A stretch of 30,549 nt of DNA from Muribaculaceae bacterium (lineage in GTDB: Bacteria; Bacteroidota; Bacteroidia; Bacteroidales; Muribaculaceae): NCBI GenBank assembly GCA_017545095.1, contig JAFYCU010000149.1, forward strand, positions 1-30,549, given 5' to 3'. Position 1 is the first letter of the stretch, and every line of letters begins with the position of its first letter. The notes below the pieces were generated by a model. It was not told the origin of the DNA. It made no database searches and saw nothing but the letters and a program-made list of their open reading frames with translations. Positions 1 to 29,791 of this stretch are shown one piece after another. Both the position numbers and the translations under genes were made by a program.

Positions 1-62
1 ATGCACAATGCACAATGCACAATTTTTTAGCTACAAGCTACGAGCTACGAGCTACAAGTAAA
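1..62 (-). repeat. Composite intergenic repeat, GTGCATT and GTAGCTY words
   Basis: Read on the minus strand, this stretch is a run of GTAGCTC/GTAGCTT heptamers, then a short A-run, then three copies of an 8-bp TTGTGCAT unit that reach the window edge. The same words in the same order occur at 27227-27285, just ahead of the pyrH promoter. It is therefore probably the upstream part of a promoter for a leftward gene outside the window. Confidence 0.7.
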
Positions 63-3119: not shown

Positions 3120-3190
3120 AGAGATGCAAGATGCGAGATGCGAGATGCAAGATTCAAGATGCGCATTGCGGCTCTTGCATCTTGCGTCTA
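3120..3190. repeat. Degenerate GATGCRA microsatellite between ompH-like gene and hflX
   Basis: The gap is almost entirely made of 7-8 bp words (GATGCAA, GATGCGA, GATTCAA), ending with an inverted version (CTTGCATCTTGCG). The same words occur at 1790-1815 upstream of the SpoU gene. The array fills the only spacer between two co-directional genes. Confidence 0.7.
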
Positions 3191-14397: not shown

Positions 14398-15453
14398 ATG
14401 AACGACGACAACAAACTCATCCGCTTTGACTGGGCCATGAAACGCCTGCTGCGCGACAAAGCCAACTTTGCTGTGCTGGAAGGACTCATCAGCACTTTGC
14501 TTGGCAAAACGCTGAAAATTCACCGATTGCTGGAAAGCGAAAGCAACAAAGATGATGCCGACGACAAACAAAACAGAGTGGACCTGCTGGCCGAAGACGA
14601 AAAAGGCGATTTGTTCCTTATCGAGGTACAGAATGAGAACGAATATGCCTATTACCAGCGCATCCTGTTTGGAACATCAAAACTTGTGACGGAATATATC
14701 AACCAAGGTGAGAATTACGAAAAAGTACGCAAGGTATACTCCATCAGCATCGTATATTTCCAAATGGGTTACAACACCGACTATGTGTACCATGGCAAAA
14801 CCCAGTTTATTGGCATACACAACGGATTACCGCTGAAATTGGCTCCATTTCAACAACAACGTTACGAGGTGAGCGAGGTGAGCGAGCTTTATCCCGAGTA
14901 TTTCATTCTGTGTGCTCATGATTTCAACAAATGGTCGCGGCAACCATTGGAACAATGGCTTTACTTCCTCAGCAACAGCGAGATTCCCGATGATGCCGAT
15001 GCCCCTGGCTTGACCGAAGCCCGCGACAAGCTCAGAGTGATGCGTATGGATGGCGACGAACGCCGCTCCTACTACCGGCATCTCGACAACATGAACGAGA
15101 TGAATCGCGTTATTTCCACCGCATGGGGTGAGGGACAAATTGATGGCTACACCAATGGTTTTGCAGAAGGCGAGGCCAAAGGACGTGCAGAAGGCGAGGC
15201 CAAAGGACGTGCAGAAGGCGAGGCCAAAGGACGTGCAGAAGGCGAGGCCAAAGGACGTGCAGAAGGCGAGGCCAAAGGACGTGCAGAAGGCGAGGCCAAA
15301 GGTCGTGCAGAAGGCGAGGCCAAAGGTCGTGAAATAGAAAAAGAGGCCACTGCCTGCAAGCTTCTCATTATGGGTCTTAGCATCGACCAGGTGTGTGACA
15401 TCACCGGTTTAAGCAAATCAAGAGTTCAGCAAATCAAAAACAAAAACAATTAA
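14398..15453 (+). CDS. Rpn-type PD-(D/E)XK nuclease-family protein with octapeptide VNTR
   Basis: A 351-residue protein of the Rpn/putative-transposase PD-(D/E)XK group common in Bacteroidales. The start MNDDNKLIRFDWAMKRLLRDKANFAVLEGL is the conserved opening of the family, so the ATG at 14398 is chosen. Catalytic core: D62 in NRVDLLAED and E76-V-Q78 in FLIEVQNE. Residues 100-230 hold the usual C-terminal half of the domain (YVYHGKTQFIGIH, YPEYFILCAHDFN). Residues 256-311 are seven exact copies of AEGEAKGR, a long charged helix. The last 40 residues (LIMGLSIDQVCDITGLSKSRVQQIK) look like a helix-turn-helix. Family members promote RecA-independent recombination; the biological role is uncertain. 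It has its own promoter, and the acyltransferase follows after 13 bp. Confidence 0.92.
   Translation: MNDDNKLIRFDWAMKRLLRDKANFAVLEGLISTLLGKTLKIHRLLESESNKDDADDKQNRVDLLAEDEKGDLFLIEVQNENEYAYYQRILFGTSKLVTEYINQGENYEKVRKVYSISIVYFQMGYNTDYVYHGKTQFIGIHNGLPLKLAPFQQQRYEVSEVSELYPEYFILCAHDFNKWSRQPLEQWLYFLSNSEIPDDADAPGLTEARDKLRVMRMDGDERRSYYRHLDNMNEMNRVISTAWGEGQIDGYTNGFAEGEAKGRAEGEAKGRAEGEAKGRAEGEAKGRAEGEAKGRAEGEAKGRAEGEAKGREIEKEATACKLLIMGLSIDQVCDITGLSKSRVQQIKNKNN
15163..15330 (+). repeat. 24-bp VNTR, seven copies, inside the nuclease-family gene
   Basis: Seven head-to-tail copies of a 24-mer starting GCAGAAGGCGAGGCCAAAGG, at 15163, 15187, 15211, 15235, 15259, 15283 and 15307. Copies 1-5 end GGACGT and copies 6-7 end GGTCGT; otherwise they are identical. 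The unit is a multiple of three, so copy-number changes keep the frame and only lengthen the charged helix. Confidence 0.97.
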
Positions 15454-17883: not shown

Positions 17884-17962
17884 CAGAAACAAGAACCGAG
17901 AACTGATAACTGATAACCGAAAACTGATAACTGATAACCGATAACCGAAAACTGATAACCGA
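17884..17962 (+). repeat. Degenerate 8-10 bp array, AACTGATA/ACCGATA words
   Basis: About nine copies of AACTGATAACCG-like words fill most of the 181-bp gap before tex. Variants are GAACTGATA, ACCGAAAACTGATA and ACCGATA. Related words occur at 12430-12463 and 29716-29750. Confidence 0.75.
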
Positions 17963-18032
17963 GTCTAACGTTAATTGTCAGTGTAAGGCGAGACGCAGTC
18001 TCGCTCCCCACCACTCACTACCCACCACCACT

Positions 18033-24344: not shown

Positions 24345-24394
24345 AAAAAAATTAAAAATCGTGCATTGCGCAGGACGCATTGTGCATGAAATCG

Positions 24395-24427
24395 TTGTGC
24401 ATTGTGCATTAATTAGTAACTTTGCAG
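24395..24427 (+). promoter_or_regulatory. lepB promoter embedded in GTGCATT repeats
   Basis: TTG of TTGTGC (24395-24397), a 19-bp spacer and TAACTTTGC (24417-24425) form a Bacteroides promoter 29 bp before the ATG. The -33 region and spacer consist of TTGTGCAT words. The 33-bp block matches 27268-27300 upstream of pyrH at 31 positions. More words of this kind lie upstream (24360-24395). Confidence 0.85.
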
Positions 24428-24455
24428 TTTCATTTGCAAAAACAATTCTTCCCTT

Positions 24456-25901
24456 ATGACTTCAACCGACAAGAAAGACAAGAATCAAGAGCAAGAATAT
24501 GTGCGGCAGACGGGCAGTCTGCGCGAGCGTTTGGCACGCGTGAAGGGCACGCGCTGGGTGCGCTTTGGCATCGTGGCGGCCATCTATGTGGGCTGGACCA
24601 TTTGGATGGGCAACCCCTGGCTGCTGCTCGCACTGCCCCTGCTGACCGACATCTACCTCACCCAATTCATTCCTTGGGGAGCGTGGAAGGGCTGGAAACC
24701 CGGCATTGCACGCACCATCATGAGCTGGGTCGATGCCATCATCTATGCCCTGGTGCTGGTCTATTTCCTGTTCCTGTTCGTGGGGCAGAACTACCAGATT
24801 CCCTCGTCGTCGCTCGAAAAGACGCTGCTCACGGGCGACTTCCTGTGGGTGAACAAGATGGTGTACGGTCCGCGTGTGCCGCAAACGCCGCTGCACTTCC
24901 CGCTGGCGCAGAACACCCTGCCCATCCTGAACTGCAAGAGTTACATCGACAAGCCGCAGCTGGAGTACCACCGCCTGAAAGGCGTGCGCAGCGTGGAGCG
25001 CGGCGACATTGTGGTGTTTAACTTCCCCGCCGGCGACACCGTGGCGCTCAAGTGCCCAAACCCCGACTACTACACCCTGTGCTATGATAAGGGGCGCGAG
25101 GCCGTGTGGGGCAACCCCGAGATGTTTGGCGAGGTCATCTACCGCCCCGTGGACCGGCGCGACAACTACGTGAAGCGTTGTCTGGGCTTGCCCGGCGAGC
25201 GGCTGAGCATCCGCGACGGTGTGGTGTTCATCAACGACCAGGCACTGCCGCAGCCCGAAAACGTGCAGTTCCGCTATGTGGTCATGACCGACGGCACGCC
25301 CATCAGCAATGCCCTCTTCGACGAACTGGGTGTGAGCCGCGATGACCGCAATGGCAACGGCCAGCTCTATGAACTGCCGCTGACCAATGCCATGAAGCAA
25401 CGACTTGAGAGCATGTCGTGGGTGAATCACGTGGCGCAGGTAGATGACGAATTCATCCGGCTCAACAACCCCGAGTATCTAGTCTACGAACACCAGATTA
25501 CCTACCCCATCGGCACCGACTTGGGATGGACGCACGAGAACTATGGTCCGATATGGGTTCCAAAGCGCGGGGCCACCATCAAGCTCGACATGCAGTCGCT
25601 GCCGCTCTATGAGCGGTGCATACGCAACTACGAGGGCAACACGCTGGAGGTGAAAGGCGACAAAATCTTCATCAACGGCCAGGAGGCCAACACCTACACC
25701 TTCAAGATGGACTACTACTGGATGATGGGAGACAACCGCGACAACTCGCTCGACTCGCGCTACTGGGGCTTTGTGCCCGAGGATCACATCGTGGGCACAC
25801 CCATGATAGTGCTCATCTCGTTCGACAAGGACAAGTCGCTCTTCCATGGAGGCATCCGCTGGAACCGCGTGTTCAAGAAGCCCAACCCCGACAAGAAATG
25901 A
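24456..25901 (+). CDS. lepB: Signal peptidase I
   Basis: A 481-residue membrane protease removing signal peptides from exported proteins. It has two or more N-terminal transmembrane helices (about 36-66 and 91-110). The catalytic serine is S119 (YQIPSSSLEKTLL) and the lysine K240 (DNYVKRCLGLPGERL). The box E motif is MMGDNRDNSLDSRYWGFV near residue 426. The enzyme is far longer than E. coli LepB (324) because of inserts after the lysine region (about 255-395), normal for Bacteroidales LepB. It starts from a repeat-embedded promoter and its stop overlaps the start of the WbqC-like gene (ATGA), so the two are translationally coupled. Confidence 0.97.
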   Translation: MTSTDKKDKNQEQEYVRQTGSLRERLARVKGTRWVRFGIVAAIYVGWTIWMGNPWLLLALPLLTDIYLTQFIPWGAWKGWKPGIARTIMSWVDAIIYALVLVYFLFLFVGQNYQIPSSSLEKTLLTGDFLWVNKMVYGPRVPQTPLHFPLAQNTLPILNCKSYIDKPQLEYHRLKGVRSVERGDIVVFNFPAGDTVALKCPNPDYYTLCYDKGREAVWGNPEMFGEVIYRPVDRRDNYVKRCLGLPGERLSIRDGVVFINDQALPQPENVQFRYVVMTDGTPISNALFDELGVSRDDRNGNGQLYELPLTNAMKQRLESMSWVNHVAQVDDEFIRLNNPEYLVYEHQITYPIGTDLGWTHENYGPIWVPKRGATIKLDMQSLPLYERCIRNYEGNTLEVKGDKIFINGQEANTYTFKMDYYWMMGDNRDNSLDSRYWGFVPEDHIVGTPMIVLISFDKDKSLFHGGIRWNRVFKKPNPDKK

Positions 25902-26626
25902 AGGATAGGCCTCCCCTAACCCCAAGGCCTCCCCTAACCCCTCCTAAAGGAGGGAAATCTGACTCTGCATCGACCGCAAGTCCCCCTTTAGGGGGATTTA
26001 GGAGGCCTGAATTTAGGGGGCCGTTTCCTATCCGCTGGTGGGCAATGGCATTTCGGGCTGGCAGGGTGGTGATCGACGTTGACGAGCGTGGGCTGAACCG
26101 CCGGCACGAGCATCATCGCTATGCCATCATGGGCCCAGGGGGCGTACAGTGGCTCACCATCCCCCTTACCGGCGACACACGCACACCACACACCGCACTG
26201 AGCGAGATTCGCATCAGCGAGCACGCCAACTGGCGACGCACCCACTGGGGCGCACTCTACTCGGCCTATGGCCGCACACCCTATTTCGACTATGTAGCCG
26301 ACGACTTGCAACGAATTATCCACGGCAATCAAACACTCCTGCTCGACTTCATCCAACAGCTCACACAACTCATCACCGAGTTCATGCAGCTGCCCATAAC
26401 CTTTGAATATAGGAATCTAGATAATTTAGAAAGTTTAGAAAATCTAGCTCTCCACGATGTGCCTTACCACCAGCTCTGGGCCGACCGACATGGCTTCCAA
26501 CCCAATCTGAGCATCCTGGACCTGATGATGAACCAAGGACCCGAGGGCATCTTCACCTTATTCAGCATGACTACCACCACGCAAACCCGTGATGGCGCAA
26601 TTGACGTATTCAAACGCATTAAATAA
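25898..26626 (+). CDS. WbqC-like family protein with REP-derived N-terminus
   Basis: A 242-residue protein whose ATG (25898) overlaps the lepB TGA as ATGA. WbqC family sequence starts at about residue 41: PIRWWAMAFRAGRVVIDVDE, HHRYAIMGPGGVQWLTIPL, ISEHANWRRTHWGALYSAYGRTPYFDY, then LSILDLMMNQGPEG near the end. These match the PF08889 family of O-antigen-cluster and Bacteroidales proteins; the biochemical role is unknown. Residues 5-40 (PPLTPRPPLTPPKGGK, SPPLGGFRRPEFRG) are encoded by palindromic CCCCTAA/TTAGGGG repeats, which replace the expected conserved AYFGP-like opening. Either this is an expressed chimera, or translation begins at an internal ATG (26045) and the N-terminal strand is lost. 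Confidence 0.78.
   Translation: MKDRPPLTPRPPLTPPKGGKSDSASTASPPLGGFRRPEFRGPFPIRWWAMAFRAGRVVIDVDERGLNRRHEHHRYAIMGPGGVQWLTIPLTGDTRTPHTALSEIRISEHANWRRTHWGALYSAYGRTPYFDYVADDLQRIIHGNQTLLLDFIQQLTQLITEFMQLPITFEYRNLDNLESLENLALHDVPYHQLWADRHGFQPNLSILDLMMNQGPEGIFTLFSMTTTTQTRDGAIDVFKRIK
25908..26013. repeat. REP-like CCCCTAA/TTAGGGG palindromes inside the WbqC-like reading frame
   Basis: Direct copies of CCTCCCCTAACCCC at about 25910 and 25928, then the palindromes CCCTCC/GGAGGG (25939-25944 and 25949-25954) and TCCCCC/GGGGGA (25981-25986 and 25991-25996), then GATTTAGGAGGCC and GAATTTAGGGGGCC. Palindromes of this type are widely dispersed in Bacteroidetes as I recall. A relative lies at 17840-17870. Confidence 0.8.
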
Positions 26627-26859
26627 CGTTAAATCACCATCAGAAAGGTGTTTCACAGCATTGTTTTGCAACATAAAAATGCCAAAATTGCGACACAGCA
26701 CCTTCACATCCAATCGTTGCACGGGCTGAAACAGCCCAAAAGAAATGCGCATACCATACTATGCGTCAAATATTTATACAACCACAACGGCTACTTCGCT
26801 CCGTGCGGTTCCTCTCTGGCCACCATAGGTCACTCCTACTCCATTGGCAGCAGAGCGAT
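26627..26859. other. Non-coding stretch with a GGGCTG hairpin
   Basis: After the WbqC-like stop I see no gene. GGGCTG (26723-26728), AAA and CAGCCC (26732-26737) form a perfect hairpin followed by AAAAG, possibly a 3' processing hairpin or a dispersed repeat. GCATA/TATGC (26748-26763 region) is another small inverted repeat. The rest shows no recognisable element. Confidence 0.5.
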
Positions 26860-26890
26860 TTGGTCATTTCATTTTAATTACCTACCTTTG
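26860..26890 (+). promoter_or_regulatory. Consensus promoter with no downstream gene
   Basis: TTTG (26860-26863), a 19-bp spacer and TACCTTTG (26883-26890) match both boxes exactly. The next start codon of a real gene is more than 430 bp away, beyond a terminator, and has its own promoter. Confidence 0.8.
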
Positions 26891-26896
26891 TCATAT

Positions 26897-27068
26897 CGTA
26901 TAGATTTCTATCCAAAGCTCTCATTTCTCGTGATAGCGAGAAATTTTGAAATCATTTTAGTCTAAATTTCCCTACGCCACAAGCGTCGCCCCAACATGGG
27001 AATGCGAGTGCGGTGCAAAATGGCAACATGGAGGCTCGCCGGTCAAGTCGGCAGGCCTCCATTTTTTT
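26897..27068 (+). ncRNA. Candidate small RNA gene of about 170 nt
   Basis: It lies between the consensus promoter at 26860-26890 and the intrinsic terminator at 27028-27068, with no plausible open reading frame. Predicted hairpins: ATAG/CTAT (26900-26911), the 8-bp ATTTCTCG/CGAGAAAT (26923-26930 and 26937-26944), and ACGC/GCGT (26974-26977 and 26983-26986). GAAATTT (26940-26946) could pair instead with AAATTTC (26964-26970), excluding the second hairpin, so two folds are possible. I see no SRP-like apical motif and no long end-to-end pairing of the kind expected for 6S RNA. An attenuated long leader of pyrH is the main alternative. Confidence 0.6.
27028..27068 (+). terminator. Intrinsic terminator of the candidate small RNA
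   Basis: ATGGAGGC (27028-27035) pairs with GCCTCCAT (27055-27062), with an inner GCCG/CGGC stem and 7-nt loop, followed by seven T. Confidence 0.92.
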
Positions 27069-27226
27069 GCCGAATACATTAGTCACCGCCCCACGACCAC
27101 CCCAGCGGCGTATGGCCACGTTAAACCCTGGATGACTACACCTTGGAACGCTTGGTACACGGAACACACCCCGAACACACAGCAAAGTAGCACGAAGCCC
27201 GTTTACTGAACTCGTCACTCACGACA
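27069..27226. other. Non-coding stretch between small RNA and pyrH promoter region
   Basis: No gene, tRNA or clear hairpin is seen here. A minus-strand open frame (26952-27218) crosses the terminator and looks incidental. The segment is more GC-rich than other gaps and might be part of a dispersed repeat, which cannot be judged from one copy. Confidence 0.4.
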
Positions 27227-27285
27227 GTAGCTTGTAGCTCGTAGCCTAAAAAATTGTGCATTGAGCATTGTGCATTGTGCATTAA
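27227..27285 (+). repeat. Composite GTAGCTY and GTGCATT repeat upstream of pyrH
   Basis: Three GTAGCTT/GTAGCTC/GTAGCC heptamers, then TAAAAAATTGTGCATT, then further GAGCATT/GTGCATT words leading directly into the pyrH -33 and spacer. It has the same order of parts as the minus strand of 1-62. Confidence 0.85.
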
Positions 27286-27300
27286 TTCGTACCTTTGCAG
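27268..27300 (+). promoter_or_regulatory. pyrH promoter embedded in GTGCATT repeats
   Basis: TTG (27268-27270), a 19-bp spacer and TACCTTTGC (27290-27298). The start codon follows at 27325. The block is nearly identical to the lepB promoter at 24395-24427. Confidence 0.87.
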
Positions 27301-27324
27301 GTTGAATCTTTAACCACACTGAAA

Positions 27325-28041
27325 ATGAAACCTATCTATAACCGCATCTTGCTCAAACTGAGCGGGGAATCGCTGGCAGCCGGCCAAGGACACGGCATCG
27401 ACCCGCAACGGGTGGCCGACTACTGCCAACAAATCAAACAAATCGTGGACCTGGGTGTGCAGGTGGCCATCGTAATTGGCGGGGGCAACATCTTCCGTGG
27501 CCTGGCCGGAGCCGCACGCGGGGTGGACCGCGTGAAGGGCGACCAAATGGGCATGCTCGCCACGGTGATCAACTCGCTGGCCCTGTCGTCGGGGCTCGAT
27601 GCCGTGGGACAGCCATCGCAAGTGTTCACCGCCATCGCCATGGTTCCCATTGGCGAGCAATACACCAAGTGGCGCGCCATCGAGGCCATGCAGCAGGGCA
27701 AGGTGGCCATCCTGTCGTGCGGCACCGGAAACCCGTTCTTTACCACCGACACCGGCTCGGCACTGCGCGGCATCGAGGTGGAAGCTGACGTGATGCTCAA
27801 GGGCACACGCGTGGACGGCATCTACACCGCCGACCCCGAAAAGGACCCAACAGCCACCAAGTTCGACCGCATCACCTACGACGAAATCTATCGCCGCAAC
27901 CTGAAGGTGATGGATATGACAGCCACGGTGATGTGCAAGGAGAACAACCTGCCCATCCACGTGTTCAACATGGACGTGGTGGGCAACCTGCTCAAAGTGC
28001 TCACCGGCGAACCTATTGGCACGGTGGTGACAGTGGAATAA
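27325..28041 (+). CDS. pyrH: UMP kinase
   Basis: A 238-residue bacterial UMP kinase of the amino-acid-kinase fold, converting UMP to UDP for RNA, DNA and cell-wall precursors. The ATG at 27325 (MKPIYNRILLKLSGESLAG-like opening) is chosen over in-frame TTG upstream. Motifs: K11-LSGE, VIGGGNIFRGLAGA, RVKGDQMGMLATVINSLAL, LSCGTGNPFFTTDTGSALRGIE, MLKGTRVDGIYTADPEKDPTA and MDMTATVMCKENNLPI. Length is normal. In many Bacteroidetes frr follows pyrH; here a membrane protein gene does instead. Transcription probably starts at the repeat-embedded promoter. Confidence 0.97.
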   Translation: MKPIYNRILLKLSGESLAAGQGHGIDPQRVADYCQQIKQIVDLGVQVAIVIGGGNIFRGLAGAARGVDRVKGDQMGMLATVINSLALSSGLDAVGQPSQVFTAIAMVPIGEQYTKWRAIEAMQQGKVAILSCGTGNPFFTTDTGSALRGIEVEADVMLKGTRVDGIYTADPEKDPTATKFDRITYDEIYRRNLKVMDMTATVMCKENNLPIHVFNMDVVGNLLKVLTGEPIGTVVTVE

Positions 28042-28260
28042 CTTAGCAATGTGCAAAAACAAGGGGGTATAATATTATAGGACATAAGAACATAAGCCTT
28101 TGATTGCAGTTGGCAAAAGAACATAAGATTTTTATCATCAAAGCTTTCATGCCAATTCTAATATTCTTGGCTTTTGTTCAATTGGTCTGAAAATCACCCC
28201 CGGTTGTTTTTGCGACTACTCAAAAAGCATCCTTTGTTAAGCAGCATCGACAACAACCCT

Positions 28261-29709
28261 ATGCATCGGTGGCAGCTACTTGCTGAGGTAGCCGCCTTTG
28301 CTGTGCTGGCCGCTGTGAGCGCACGCATCTTCACCCCGGCCGATACGGCCACGGTGATAGCCGGCGCTGTGGTGGCCTATGCGCTGCCACGCGTGGCCTA
28401 CACCACGCGCTCGTGGTGCACCACCACCGGCCGGTGGATATTCACCGCGCTGGGCTTACTCATGGCCGCGCTCATGGTGTACACCGTGTGGCACTGCACG
28501 GTGGGTGTGGGGCTACCGCTCGATGCCCCTCGTCTCATATCCGACGATGGAGGTTACTTCCGGTGGGCGTTGCACCACTACGATGGCCGCTGTCCGTTGC
28601 CTCGGGTGGCATTCCCCGGCTTTCCGATGATGATGCTTTGGTCGTGGAAGCTGCTGGGGGTGAGCGTGGTGTGGCCGCTGGCCATGAACGTGATGTTCAC
28701 CTTGCTCACCGTGGTGGTGGGAGCAGCCACCACCCGGCGGCTGCTAACGGGTGTCACCCAGCAAAGCGACACCTGGCATGCCACCGTGGGGCTGGGCATG
28801 ACTGCGGTGCTGTTCTACTTCCTGTCGCAAGGCCTGCGGGTGCAGAAAGAGGCGATGGTGTATCTGTCGATTGCGCTCATCGGCTACACGCTTGCCGGCA
28901 TCAACAACCGCCACGCCAGTGCTGCGCGTCCACGGTGGCGCGACGGCCTGCTGTGGGCAGCTGGATGCCTGCTGCTGGCCCTAGCGCGCACCACCTATCT
29001 CTACTTCGCCCTCATTGGTCTGGCTCTGGTGTGCCTGCCGCAGTGCCGCCGCTGCTGGCGCACGCTGCCGGCAGCTCTCGCCATCATGGTGCCGGCATTT
29101 GTGCTGGGCAACCAGCTGGCCTCCTACTCGGTCGACGGGCACATCGACATTGTGAAGGGAGGCTATTATATGCAAAAGGCTTTCATGGGTTCGCCCAAGC
29201 AGCAACCTTACCTCGAACTCATTGGCCACTACTTCATGTATCCGTTTTGGAAGCGCCTCCCCATCTTACCGCTGGCCTGCTGTGTGCAATTCGTGATCCC
29301 CTTTCCGTGGGTCTACGACACCCCAACCGTGCTGGGCGTGCTCCCACGCTTGGGATGGGGATGGTATGCCGTGGGCGGACTCACCTTGTTTTATTATATG
29401 AAGATGCTCACGCGCAGCGGCCGAGAGCTGGGTCTGGGAGCATGGGCCTGGTGGCCGGCAAGCATCTATGTGATTATCGCCTATGTGGTGGCCGGTTCGG
29501 TGAGCCGCTACCTGCTGCCAGTGGAGCCCATGGCTGTGCCGCTGGCCGTGCTGGTGGCGGCACGCCTGCGCGAACACCACTGGCGGAAACCGTTCAAGTG
29601 GTGGGTCATGGCCTACGTCCTCGTGCTGGTCGTCACGCTCGTGGTGTGCTATCATGTGCAGCTATCCTATCTGCAAGACCTCAACGATTTCTACCGTGCC
29701 CACATGTGA
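28261..29709 (+). CDS. Polytopic membrane protein, possibly GT-C-type glycosyltransferase
   Basis: A 482-residue protein with about ten or more transmembrane helices. The start is uncertain: ATG at 28261 (MHRWQLL) is given, but a TTG at 28174 would add 29 residues. After three N-terminal helices an external loop contains LISDDGGYFRWALHHYDG, with acidic residues placed like the first-loop aspartates of GT-C lipid-linked sugar transferases. Later loops include GYYMQKAFMGSPKQQPYLELIGHYFMYPFWKRLP and PFPWVYDTPTVLGVLP. The terminal helices are VIIAYVVAGSVSRYLLPVEP and WWVMAYVLVLVVTLVVCYH. I do not recognise a specific family, so a polymerase- or flippase-like role is equally possible. Confidence 0.75.
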   Translation: MHRWQLLAEVAAFAVLAAVSARIFTPADTATVIAGAVVAYALPRVAYTTRSWCTTTGRWIFTALGLLMAALMVYTVWHCTVGVGLPLDAPRLISDDGGYFRWALHHYDGRCPLPRVAFPGFPMMMLWSWKLLGVSVVWPLAMNVMFTLLTVVVGAATTRRLLTGVTQQSDTWHATVGLGMTAVLFYFLSQGLRVQKEAMVYLSIALIGYTLAGINNRHASAARPRWRDGLLWAAGCLLLALARTTYLYFALIGLALVCLPQCRRCWRTLPAALAIMVPAFVLGNQLASYSVDGHIDIVKGGYYMQKAFMGSPKQQPYLELIGHYFMYPFWKRLPILPLACCVQFVIPFPWVYDTPTVLGVLPRLGWGWYAVGGLTLFYYMKMLTRSGRELGLGAWAWWPASIYVIIAYVVAGSVSRYLLPVEPMAVPLAVLVAARLREHHWRKPFKWWVMAYVLVLVVTLVVCYHVQLSYLQDLNDFYRAHM

Positions 29710-29715
29710 CGGATA

Positions 29716-29791
29716 CAAGAACCGAGAACCAAGAACCAAGAACCAAGATGGCTAACGCACGATATGCCGCCGGAATTGTGCATTGTGCATG
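29716..29791 (+). repeat. AGAACCRAG array and GTGCATT words
   Basis: AGAACCGAGAACCAAGAACC words (29718-29745) repeat a 7-bp unit three to four times. TTGTGCAT words follow at 29776-29790. The rest of the 244-bp gap holds a perfect 14-bp palindrome TTTTTCGCGAAAAA (29811-29824) and the promoter at 29879-29910. Confidence 0.65.

Follow-up and report, generated by a model that had tools for sequence, protein, structure and literature searches.

Tandem heptamer arrays at a fixed position in candidate promoters of a Muribaculaceae bacterium and its relatives, with words that differ between species

The window, a stretch of 30,549 nucleotides from a Muribaculaceae bacterium (contig JAFYCU010000149.1), was found to contain two closely similar candidate promoter elements, one upstream of lepB and the other upstream of pyrH, in which tandem seven-base words (heptads) are placed at a fixed distance before a -7 box of the type TAnnTTTG. 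The same arrangement recurs at many promoters of the nearest relative, in front of unrelated genes. Species keep its layout and differ in the seven-letter word, and the set of genes that carry it turns over from one species to another. Judged from their sequence, the heptad elements are predicted to be active promoters. With a probability of about one half, the lepB and pyrH promoters are members of a lineage-specific class in which an array of period 7 fills the gap between an A-rich block and the -7 box and is homogenised within each genome. The features of the two loci are as follows, where the scores are those of a position weight matrix (PWM) described below.

27248..27300, plus strand: pyrH promoter element, full layout (sequence; PWM score 76.4)
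27248-27254, plus strand: A-rich block of the pyrH element
27255-27282, plus strand: four heptads of the pyrH element
27283-27289, plus strand: spacer of the pyrH element
27290-27297, plus strand: -7 box TACCTTTG of the pyrH element, followed by CAG up to 27300
27325..28041, plus strand: pyrH, UMP kinase (AA_kinase, PF00696)
24375..24427, plus strand: lepB promoter element (sequence; PWM score 47.1)
24396-24409, plus strand: in-register heptads of the lepB element, the two proximal ones only
24410-24416, plus strand: spacer of the lepB element
24417-24424, plus strand: -7 box TAACTTTG of the lepB element
24360..24388, plus strand: out-of-register GTGCATT-like words upstream of the lepB heptads (sequence; matches with 2 mismatches)
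24456..25901, plus strand: lepB, signal peptidase (Peptidase_S26; Pfam PF10502, E 5.5e-40)

The element in the window and in the nearest relative

The lepB block (24395-24427) and the pyrH block (27268-27300), which the original prediction had described as nearly identical, were found on recount to be equal at 31 of 33 positions. Both had also been placed at the end of GTGCATT-type arrays, which agrees with the four in-register units of pyrH and with the two in-register units and scattered out-of-register words of lepB. The composite TTGTGCATTnnTTnnTAnnTTTGC was found twice in the window at 0 mismatches, compared with 0.04 occurrences expected when up to three mismatches are allowed, and a count of two was reached in none of 100 shuffles. 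Across positions -35 to -7, counted from the TA of the -7 box, the pyrH element was found to repeat itself at period 7 with at least 15 of 22 bases equal.

The nearest of 101 genomes searched with LepB (G021) was found to contain a LepB 87% identical and a PyrH 97% identical to those of the window, and its pyrH orthologue exceeded the TIGR02075 pyrH cut-off. The pyrH scan covered at least 80 Bacteroidales loci, many from gut or rumen metagenome genomes. The distribution of GTGCATT doublets was patchy, with any found in 20 of 63 genomes at 1 to 71 matches each. The pattern GTGCATT-N{2,10}-TAnnTTTG matched 16 times across the entire G021 genome and never in the control, and 14 of these matches contained six bases between the word and the box (the remaining two five and eight), a concentration at one of nine spacings with a P of about 4e-12. 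Regular expressions written for wrong spacings gave few matches.

The 14 G021 copies aligned on the -7 box were found to contain an A-rich block with a sharp upstream edge, followed by the heptads, the bases T-W-W-T, three bases that vary and then TAnCTTTGCAG. The search pattern itself prescribed GTGCATT and TAnnTTTG, as well as the first T of the spacer. Sharing of the entire spacer is thus an impression from two copies, since the last three of its bases vary across the 14, and spacer identity is weakened as proof of copying. A PWM of 53 columns was trained on these 14 copies and the two window copies of pyrH and lepB. Across 431 kb of G021 it gave 29 elements at a score of at least 22 and 35 when the lowest cut was used, which is a count and not a density, nearly all of the contigs having been chosen as match-bearing. 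Reversed or complement-only G021 sequence gave 0 elements even at a score of 15. The earlier idea of a recurring promoter block is right, and better founded than the window by itself could show.

In the layout of the element, positions -42 to -36 are taken by an A/T-rich block and -35 to -8 by as many as four heptads in tandem; a spacer of seven bases then leads to the -7 box TAnnTTTG, which was present at its fixed place in 29 of 29 elements (weighted by the matrix, not required). TTG was found 19 nt ahead of TA in 27 of the 29 and in both window copies. The pairwise identity of the G021 elements was 0.68 within the 53 bases and 0.26 and 0.31 in the 40-nt flanks. The mean match to the word at heptads 1 to 4 was 6.3, 6.2, 6.0 and 4.6 of 7, followed by 1.5 at the next position. 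Four units with a match of at least 5/7 were found in 13 elements, three in 12 and two in 4, so that at least three contiguous 7-bp units were present in 25 of 29. The loss of units was by point divergence, mostly of the distal unit, with the frame unshifted.

A same-strand open reading frame (ORF) was found to follow 29 of 29 elements at a distance of 1-89 nt, in one case 247 nt, when the first ORF of at least half the length of the longest was taken among ATG ORFs of at least 80 codons, or open at the end of the locus, that start within 260 nt. By a cruder ORF picker, 24 of the 29 elements had an ORF on their own strand and 2 of the 29 fell within a longer ORF of the opposite strand. Two of the five ORFs that this picker missed were named by family (an aminotransferase and RsmA), and the other three are less sure, being without a family match (L141 and L146 in NCBIfam; L202, of 86 codons, in Pfam). 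The family scans took in 28 of the 29 element proteins, the 1524-codon L196 being left out. The named genes include alaS, metG, valS, leuS, secA, mfd, rsmA, ddl, pyrH and sdhC, together with a protein with RsbW and SpoIIE-like matches; the others were unnamed or membrane proteins. Aminoacyl-tRNA synthetases were found at 4 of 29 elements (P of 6e-4 to 1e-4, on the assumption of 22 among 1500-2400 genes). The proposed linkage of core genes by the element is weak: these four synthetases speak for it, and the metG orthologue of a second relative (G019), found without the element, speaks against it.

Word change, fixed register and gene turnover

The PyrH of G019 was 91% identical to that of the window, and its pyrH promoter was found to contain AAATAAT followed by four heptads, a spacer and a -7 box, in which the heptads were CTTAATT-like and not GTGCATT-like. 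The word of G019 was C[AT]T[AC]ATT and that of G021 G[TC]GCATT, both of which close in ATT. Genome-wide and with one mismatch, the G019 word at promoter spacing was found 50 times in G019 against 4 in the control, and 5 times in G021 against 5; GTGCATT at promoter spacing was found 16 times in the whole of G021 and 0 times in the whole of G019. Twelve promoters with the G019 word were found in 314 kb of G019 (10 of 12 with an ORF by script, 8 passing the period-7 cut given below), and all 12 contained an A/T-rich block at -42 to -36. Four units of at least 5/7 were found in 10 of the 12 and at least three contiguous units in 11, with a mean match to the own word at heptads 1 to 4 of 6.8, 6.3, 6.2 and 6.2 of 7. 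Over heptads 1-4 the mean match to the own word was 5.8 of 7 in G021 and 6.4 in G019, against 4.0 and 3.6, respectively, to the word of the other. At one spacing, 12 of 15 G019 matches were found.

The period of the arrays was also read from promoters defined solely by TAnnTTTG before an ORF, over the region -35 to -7, where at least 15 of 22 equal bases were required at period 7 and 68% at other periods. Passes at period 7 were found in 14 of 77 promoters of G021, 8 of 75 of G019, 4 of 46 of G024 and 2 of 11 of G048 and G059 together, followed by 1 of 7 in the window, 1 of 58 at loci L001-L009 and 1 of 305 at other Bacteroidales loci. Periods 4-6 and 8-10 gave 0 in all sets except for the window at period 10 (1 of 7), and no set had more than one pass at any period in a control region at -110. 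In the G019 contigs not chosen via lepB, pyrH or rplY the rate at period 7 was 4 of 52. When the region was slid upstream, arrays were found in G019 only from about -43 down, with 0 of 75 beyond -50; in G021 there were 13 at -36, 5 at -29 and single cases at -99, -78 and -71, the other upstream positions giving 0-1 of 77 promoters.

The GTGCATT element was found at rplY in G024, G048 and G059, in 3 of 29 rplY loci, two of which (G066 and G043) end too near the gene for the promoter to be read. The four-heptad span was constant at pyrH in the window, G021 and G019 and at rplY in G024, G048 and G059. The original prediction had supposed that promoter strength could be tuned by repeat number, which is unsupported because the arrays do not pass about -42; they stay within -42 to -8, and the frame is constant at pyrH and rplY.

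The genes that carry the element were found to change between species. An array was present at lepB in the window and absent from lepB in G021, and the two sequences were 60% identical from -7 to +30 and 32% identical in the 60 bases upstream; because the former identity exceeds the latter, the gain or loss of the array probably took place upstream of a -7 box that was itself retained. Five genes with the element in G021 had an orthologue that could be read in the G019 sample (pyrH, metG, rsmA, an M16-like gene and a DUF4954 gene), and a heptad promoter was found there in 1 of 5, namely pyrH, in a search that used 27 of the 29 element proteins, L194 and L202 being left out. The reverse search of the G019 element genes against the G021 sample, with orthologues above 55% identity, found pyrH alone. 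A four-heptad array was absent from pyrH and metG in G030, from secA in G024 and from pyrH and aspC in G043, where aspC contained a single ATTCTTA unit at the usual spacing.

In G048, G043 and G024 (L258, L261 and L263), GTGCATT-like words also share a position some 145 nt ahead of pyrH, with no TAnnTTTG box at the usual spacing.

Explanations of the arrays

Both loci are candidate promoters of the housekeeping type of Bacteroidetes. For the sigma factor sigma-ABfr, a -7 box TAnnTTTG and a -33 box TTTG are given as consensus (PMC7366714), and in a flavobacterium the -7 box is placed at -12 to -5 (PMC9723704); variable spacing of the boxes is described in the former and repeats are unmentioned in the part of it available. 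The G021 elements are like these promoters in the -7 box, in the TTG ahead of it and in their short distance to the start codon. They differ in that -42 to -8 is occupied by an A/T-rich block and tandem heptads. In the array-free promoters of G021 and G019, T was found to peak near -23/-22 and -16/-14, with G or T at -21, and the ordinary promoters of the lineage were weakly A/T-rich at -42 to -37, in a set that still held at least 2 of the 29 elements.

In the favoured explanation, the A/T-rich block upstream of the heptads would serve as an UP-like contact of RNA polymerase, and the heptads would place T at about -22 and -15 from TA, where ordinary promoters of the lineage prefer it. An in-register array would thereby supply both the -33 contact and a contact in the spacer, and four heptads would be what fits from the A-block to the -7 box. 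Since an array that ends in ATT in this register meets the T preferences, register and length could be explained without a new protein. The arrays may arise or lengthen by slippage of 7 bp and then be kept in register, and one word per genome could be reached by selection or by short recombination between promoters; word and gene membership would change while the geometry stays because the arrays are homogenised within one genome. The use of one word at many promoters is left unaccounted for by this and would need either selection for the word, by a regulator, or short recombination between promoters. More tentatively, the elements may form a promoter family under concerted evolution, in which dozens of unlinked promoters share one word and those of a sister species another, with the geometry kept. 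If so, a genome-wide homogenising process that acts on blocks of about 50 bp would be needed, or else a novel regulator, or a novel contact of the polymerase, that has a periodicity of 7 bp and a quickly shifting preference for one word.

Several observations weigh against the favoured explanation. Only 13 of the 29 G021 elements keep four clear units, by which confidence in it was slightly lowered, and 14 of the 29 also trained the PWM. The G021 sequence was mostly chosen for its matches, 12 contigs by a register-specific model, and the 28 of 32 units found there at spacing 6 modulo 7 are biased by this choice of contigs; the R1 model scored at most 80 candidates per genome. Two of the 16 pattern matches stand at other spacings and one GTGCATT doublet of G021 (C93) lies away from any -7 box. 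Downstream of the box, conservation fades past +10 with no abrupt stop, and A/T is preferred at +15 to +17 too. The -33 place was found to contain TTC in 8 of 12 and TTG in 0 of 12 promoters of G019 where G021 reads TTG, and thus the -33 contact is not simply preserved; the A-block of G019 itself matches the AT-rich word of that genome (5/7) in 8 of 12, which makes its upper boundary less clear than that of G021. No period-7 pass was found in the samples of G043, G030, G004 and G028 (0 of 33, 0 of 50, 0 of 24 and 0 of 23, respectively). Several words were found to coexist in G024, where one promoter contained a TCAATTC-type and one a TAAGAAT-type array. A word of the ATTCTCA type was found in G024 and G043 in two registers, 9 and 11 bases before TA, in about equal numbers (26 and 20 of 58 rows in G024, 14 and 17 of 47 in G043, with one extra period included). 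These counts used 58 of 69 rows for G024 and 47 of 55 for G043, 10 and 8 being dropped because their promoter was already represented by another match, and a G024 row with spacing 21 being overlooked. The two spacings may be separate promoter subclasses.

The heptads could instead be operators of a DNA-binding regulator of a growth regulon, in which case co-evolution of regulator and sites would explain the difference in word between species. The dominance of one word in each of G021 and G019 fits this, as do the four aminoacyl-tRNA synthetases, with secA, rsmA, pyrH and mfd also present, and heptameric direct repeats near the promoter are known as operators of the Streptomyces antibiotic regulatory protein (SARP) activators (PMC5930380). 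The SARP repeats are two or three in number, with 4-bp spacers and a period of 11 bp, whereas the units found here are contiguous, up to four in number and of period 7, which puts neighbours on different faces of the helix. The membership is also poorly conserved, with 1 of 5 readable orthologues common to G021 and G019, and several words coexist in G024; such a regulon is considered fairly unlikely.

The portable promoter of the original prediction is partly supported, in the sense of a dispersed promoter family with gene turnover; spread as an insertion unit is unsupported, as is repeat-number tuning. The dispersed similar copies with unrelated flanks, and the gain or loss at lepB between the window and G021, would be accounted for by a promoter-bearing cassette, mobile or copied, that is inserted as a whole ahead of genes. 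However, neither terminal inverted repeats nor target-site duplications were found among the 29 G021 elements. Terminal inverted repeats of 8, 10 and 12 bases gave 2.17, 2.69 and 3.45 matches against 2.36, 2.85 and 3.38 in shuffles, and target-site duplications of 4, 5, 6 and 8 bases gave 2.69, 3.03, 3.52 and 4.31 with the own flanks against 2.84, 3.22, 3.58 and 4.23 with mismatched ones. The elements thereby differ from miniature inverted-repeat transposable elements (MITEs), such as the MITE with a minisatellite of Porphyromonas gingivalis (PMC4596501), which are likewise short, dispersed and repeat-containing. Each of the 29 elements precedes an ORF, the identity pattern of lepB between the window and G021 fits a replacement upstream of the native -7 box, and the pyrH promoter of G019 shows its change of word in place; insertion as a unit is accordingly held to be improbable. 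Spread by phage was rejected, as the 10 stretches of viral contigs with the exact composite contained no GTGCATT array within 80 bases upstream, and the 104 bases 27227-27330 gave no match in a plasmid collection at E 1e-5.

Neutral heptamer microsatellites, lying beside promoters by chance, would be in keeping with the many words in which arrays of period 7 are common in these genomes, gene ends included, and with the reported over-representation of heptameric repeats in bacteria, for which polymerase slippage has been cited as a possible cause (PMC4692102). Under chance placement, a single spacing in 14 of 16 (G021) and 12 of 15 (G019) matches is unexpected, as are the upper boundary near the A-block and the near absence of arrays elsewhere upstream on sliding the region, and this explanation is regarded as very improbable.

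The heptameric repeats of cyanobacteria are known by the name STRR. TAACTGA repeats are known in Beggiatoaceae, cyanobacteria and five Bacteroidetes; their sets range from two copies to six or more and in the main species mostly stand immediately ahead of start codons, and an action after transcription has been proposed for them (PMC4679880); another example is GGGAATC in Xanthomonas (PMC4679880, PMC4692102). The arrays described here are like these simple sequence repeats in their contiguous 7-bp tandem units, intergenic position, many copies per genome and patchy distribution (PMC4679880, PMC4692102). They differ from the TAACTGA repeats in that they precede the -7 box in a fixed register, do not pass about -42 and are not in the leader. 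A fixed promoter register is not described for heptamer repeats in the available parts of the same two papers, and the arrangement was not found reported among the open-licence papers listed, judged by titles and abstract openings. Heptamer repeats have been noted in bacteria without a clear function; in the present elements they occupy a fixed place in the promoter. Their bounded length and species-specific word make a function directly testable by promoter fusions, and because the word changes while the geometry is kept, the elements form a natural experiment for following the spread and homogenisation of short regulatory sequences in one genome. The element is also of relevance for the building of promoters for rumen and gut Bacteroidales.

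Other heptamer arrays of the window and its relatives

A second tandem word, GTAGCTY, was found next to GTGCATT words at two places of the window.

27227..27246, plus strand: GTAGCTY tandem words upstream of the pyrH element (tandem repeat row, pattern match)
1..23, minus strand: GTGCATT array that reaches the left edge of the window (sequence, pattern matches, tandem repeat row)
29..58, minus strand: GTAGCTY array next to the GTGCATT array, with an A-run between them (sequence, pattern match, tandem repeat row)

For the minus strand of 1-62, the original prediction had given the order of 27227-27285, with GTAGCTY words first, then an A-run and then words of the GTGCATT type, and this order was confirmed. 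The GTAGCTY part is not general, as two or more GTAGCT words within 120 bases upstream were found in 0 of the 29 G021 elements. No GTGCATT doublet was found in the loci around the GDPD gene in three relatives (G019, G030 and G021). The gene beside the GDPD gene in G021 was different from that in G019 and G030, where it starts like what we take to be queA.

Across the 80 pyrH loci and the window, period 7 was found to top periods 4-15 for long perfect tandem matches (30), followed by period 14, a multiple of 7, with 14 matches. GTGCATT arrays away from promoters (L165-L184 and loci of G024 and G043) often sit at gene ends. For 14 of 19 arrays outside ORFs, counted as one row per array with the crude ORF picker, the midpoint was found at most 41 nt from the end of an opposite-strand ORF, with AATGCAC after the stop; 4 further rows were inside ORFs.

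The window was also found to carry several further 7-bp tandem arrays with differing words. An array of the AGATGCA type (3120-3162) fills the gap between two ORFs, presumably OmpH-like on the stop side and hflX-like on the start side, and stands directly before the ATG of the second. An AACTGAT/AACCGAT array of about ten units (17890-17963) was found 39 nt past a stop codon and 70 nt before the next ORF, which we assume to be tex-like. The word of this array is close to the TAACTGA word of PMC4679880. A CAAGAAC-type array (29715-29750) begins 6 nt beyond the stop of ORF 28174-29709. At 15162-15331, a 24-bp repeat was found seven times in frame in an ORF of the PD-(D/E)XK transposase family (PDDEXK_2). 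The region 25907-26020, between lepB and a WbqC-like ORF, was found to contain direct copies of the CTAACCCC type and, as judged by eye, an inverted counterpart of them.

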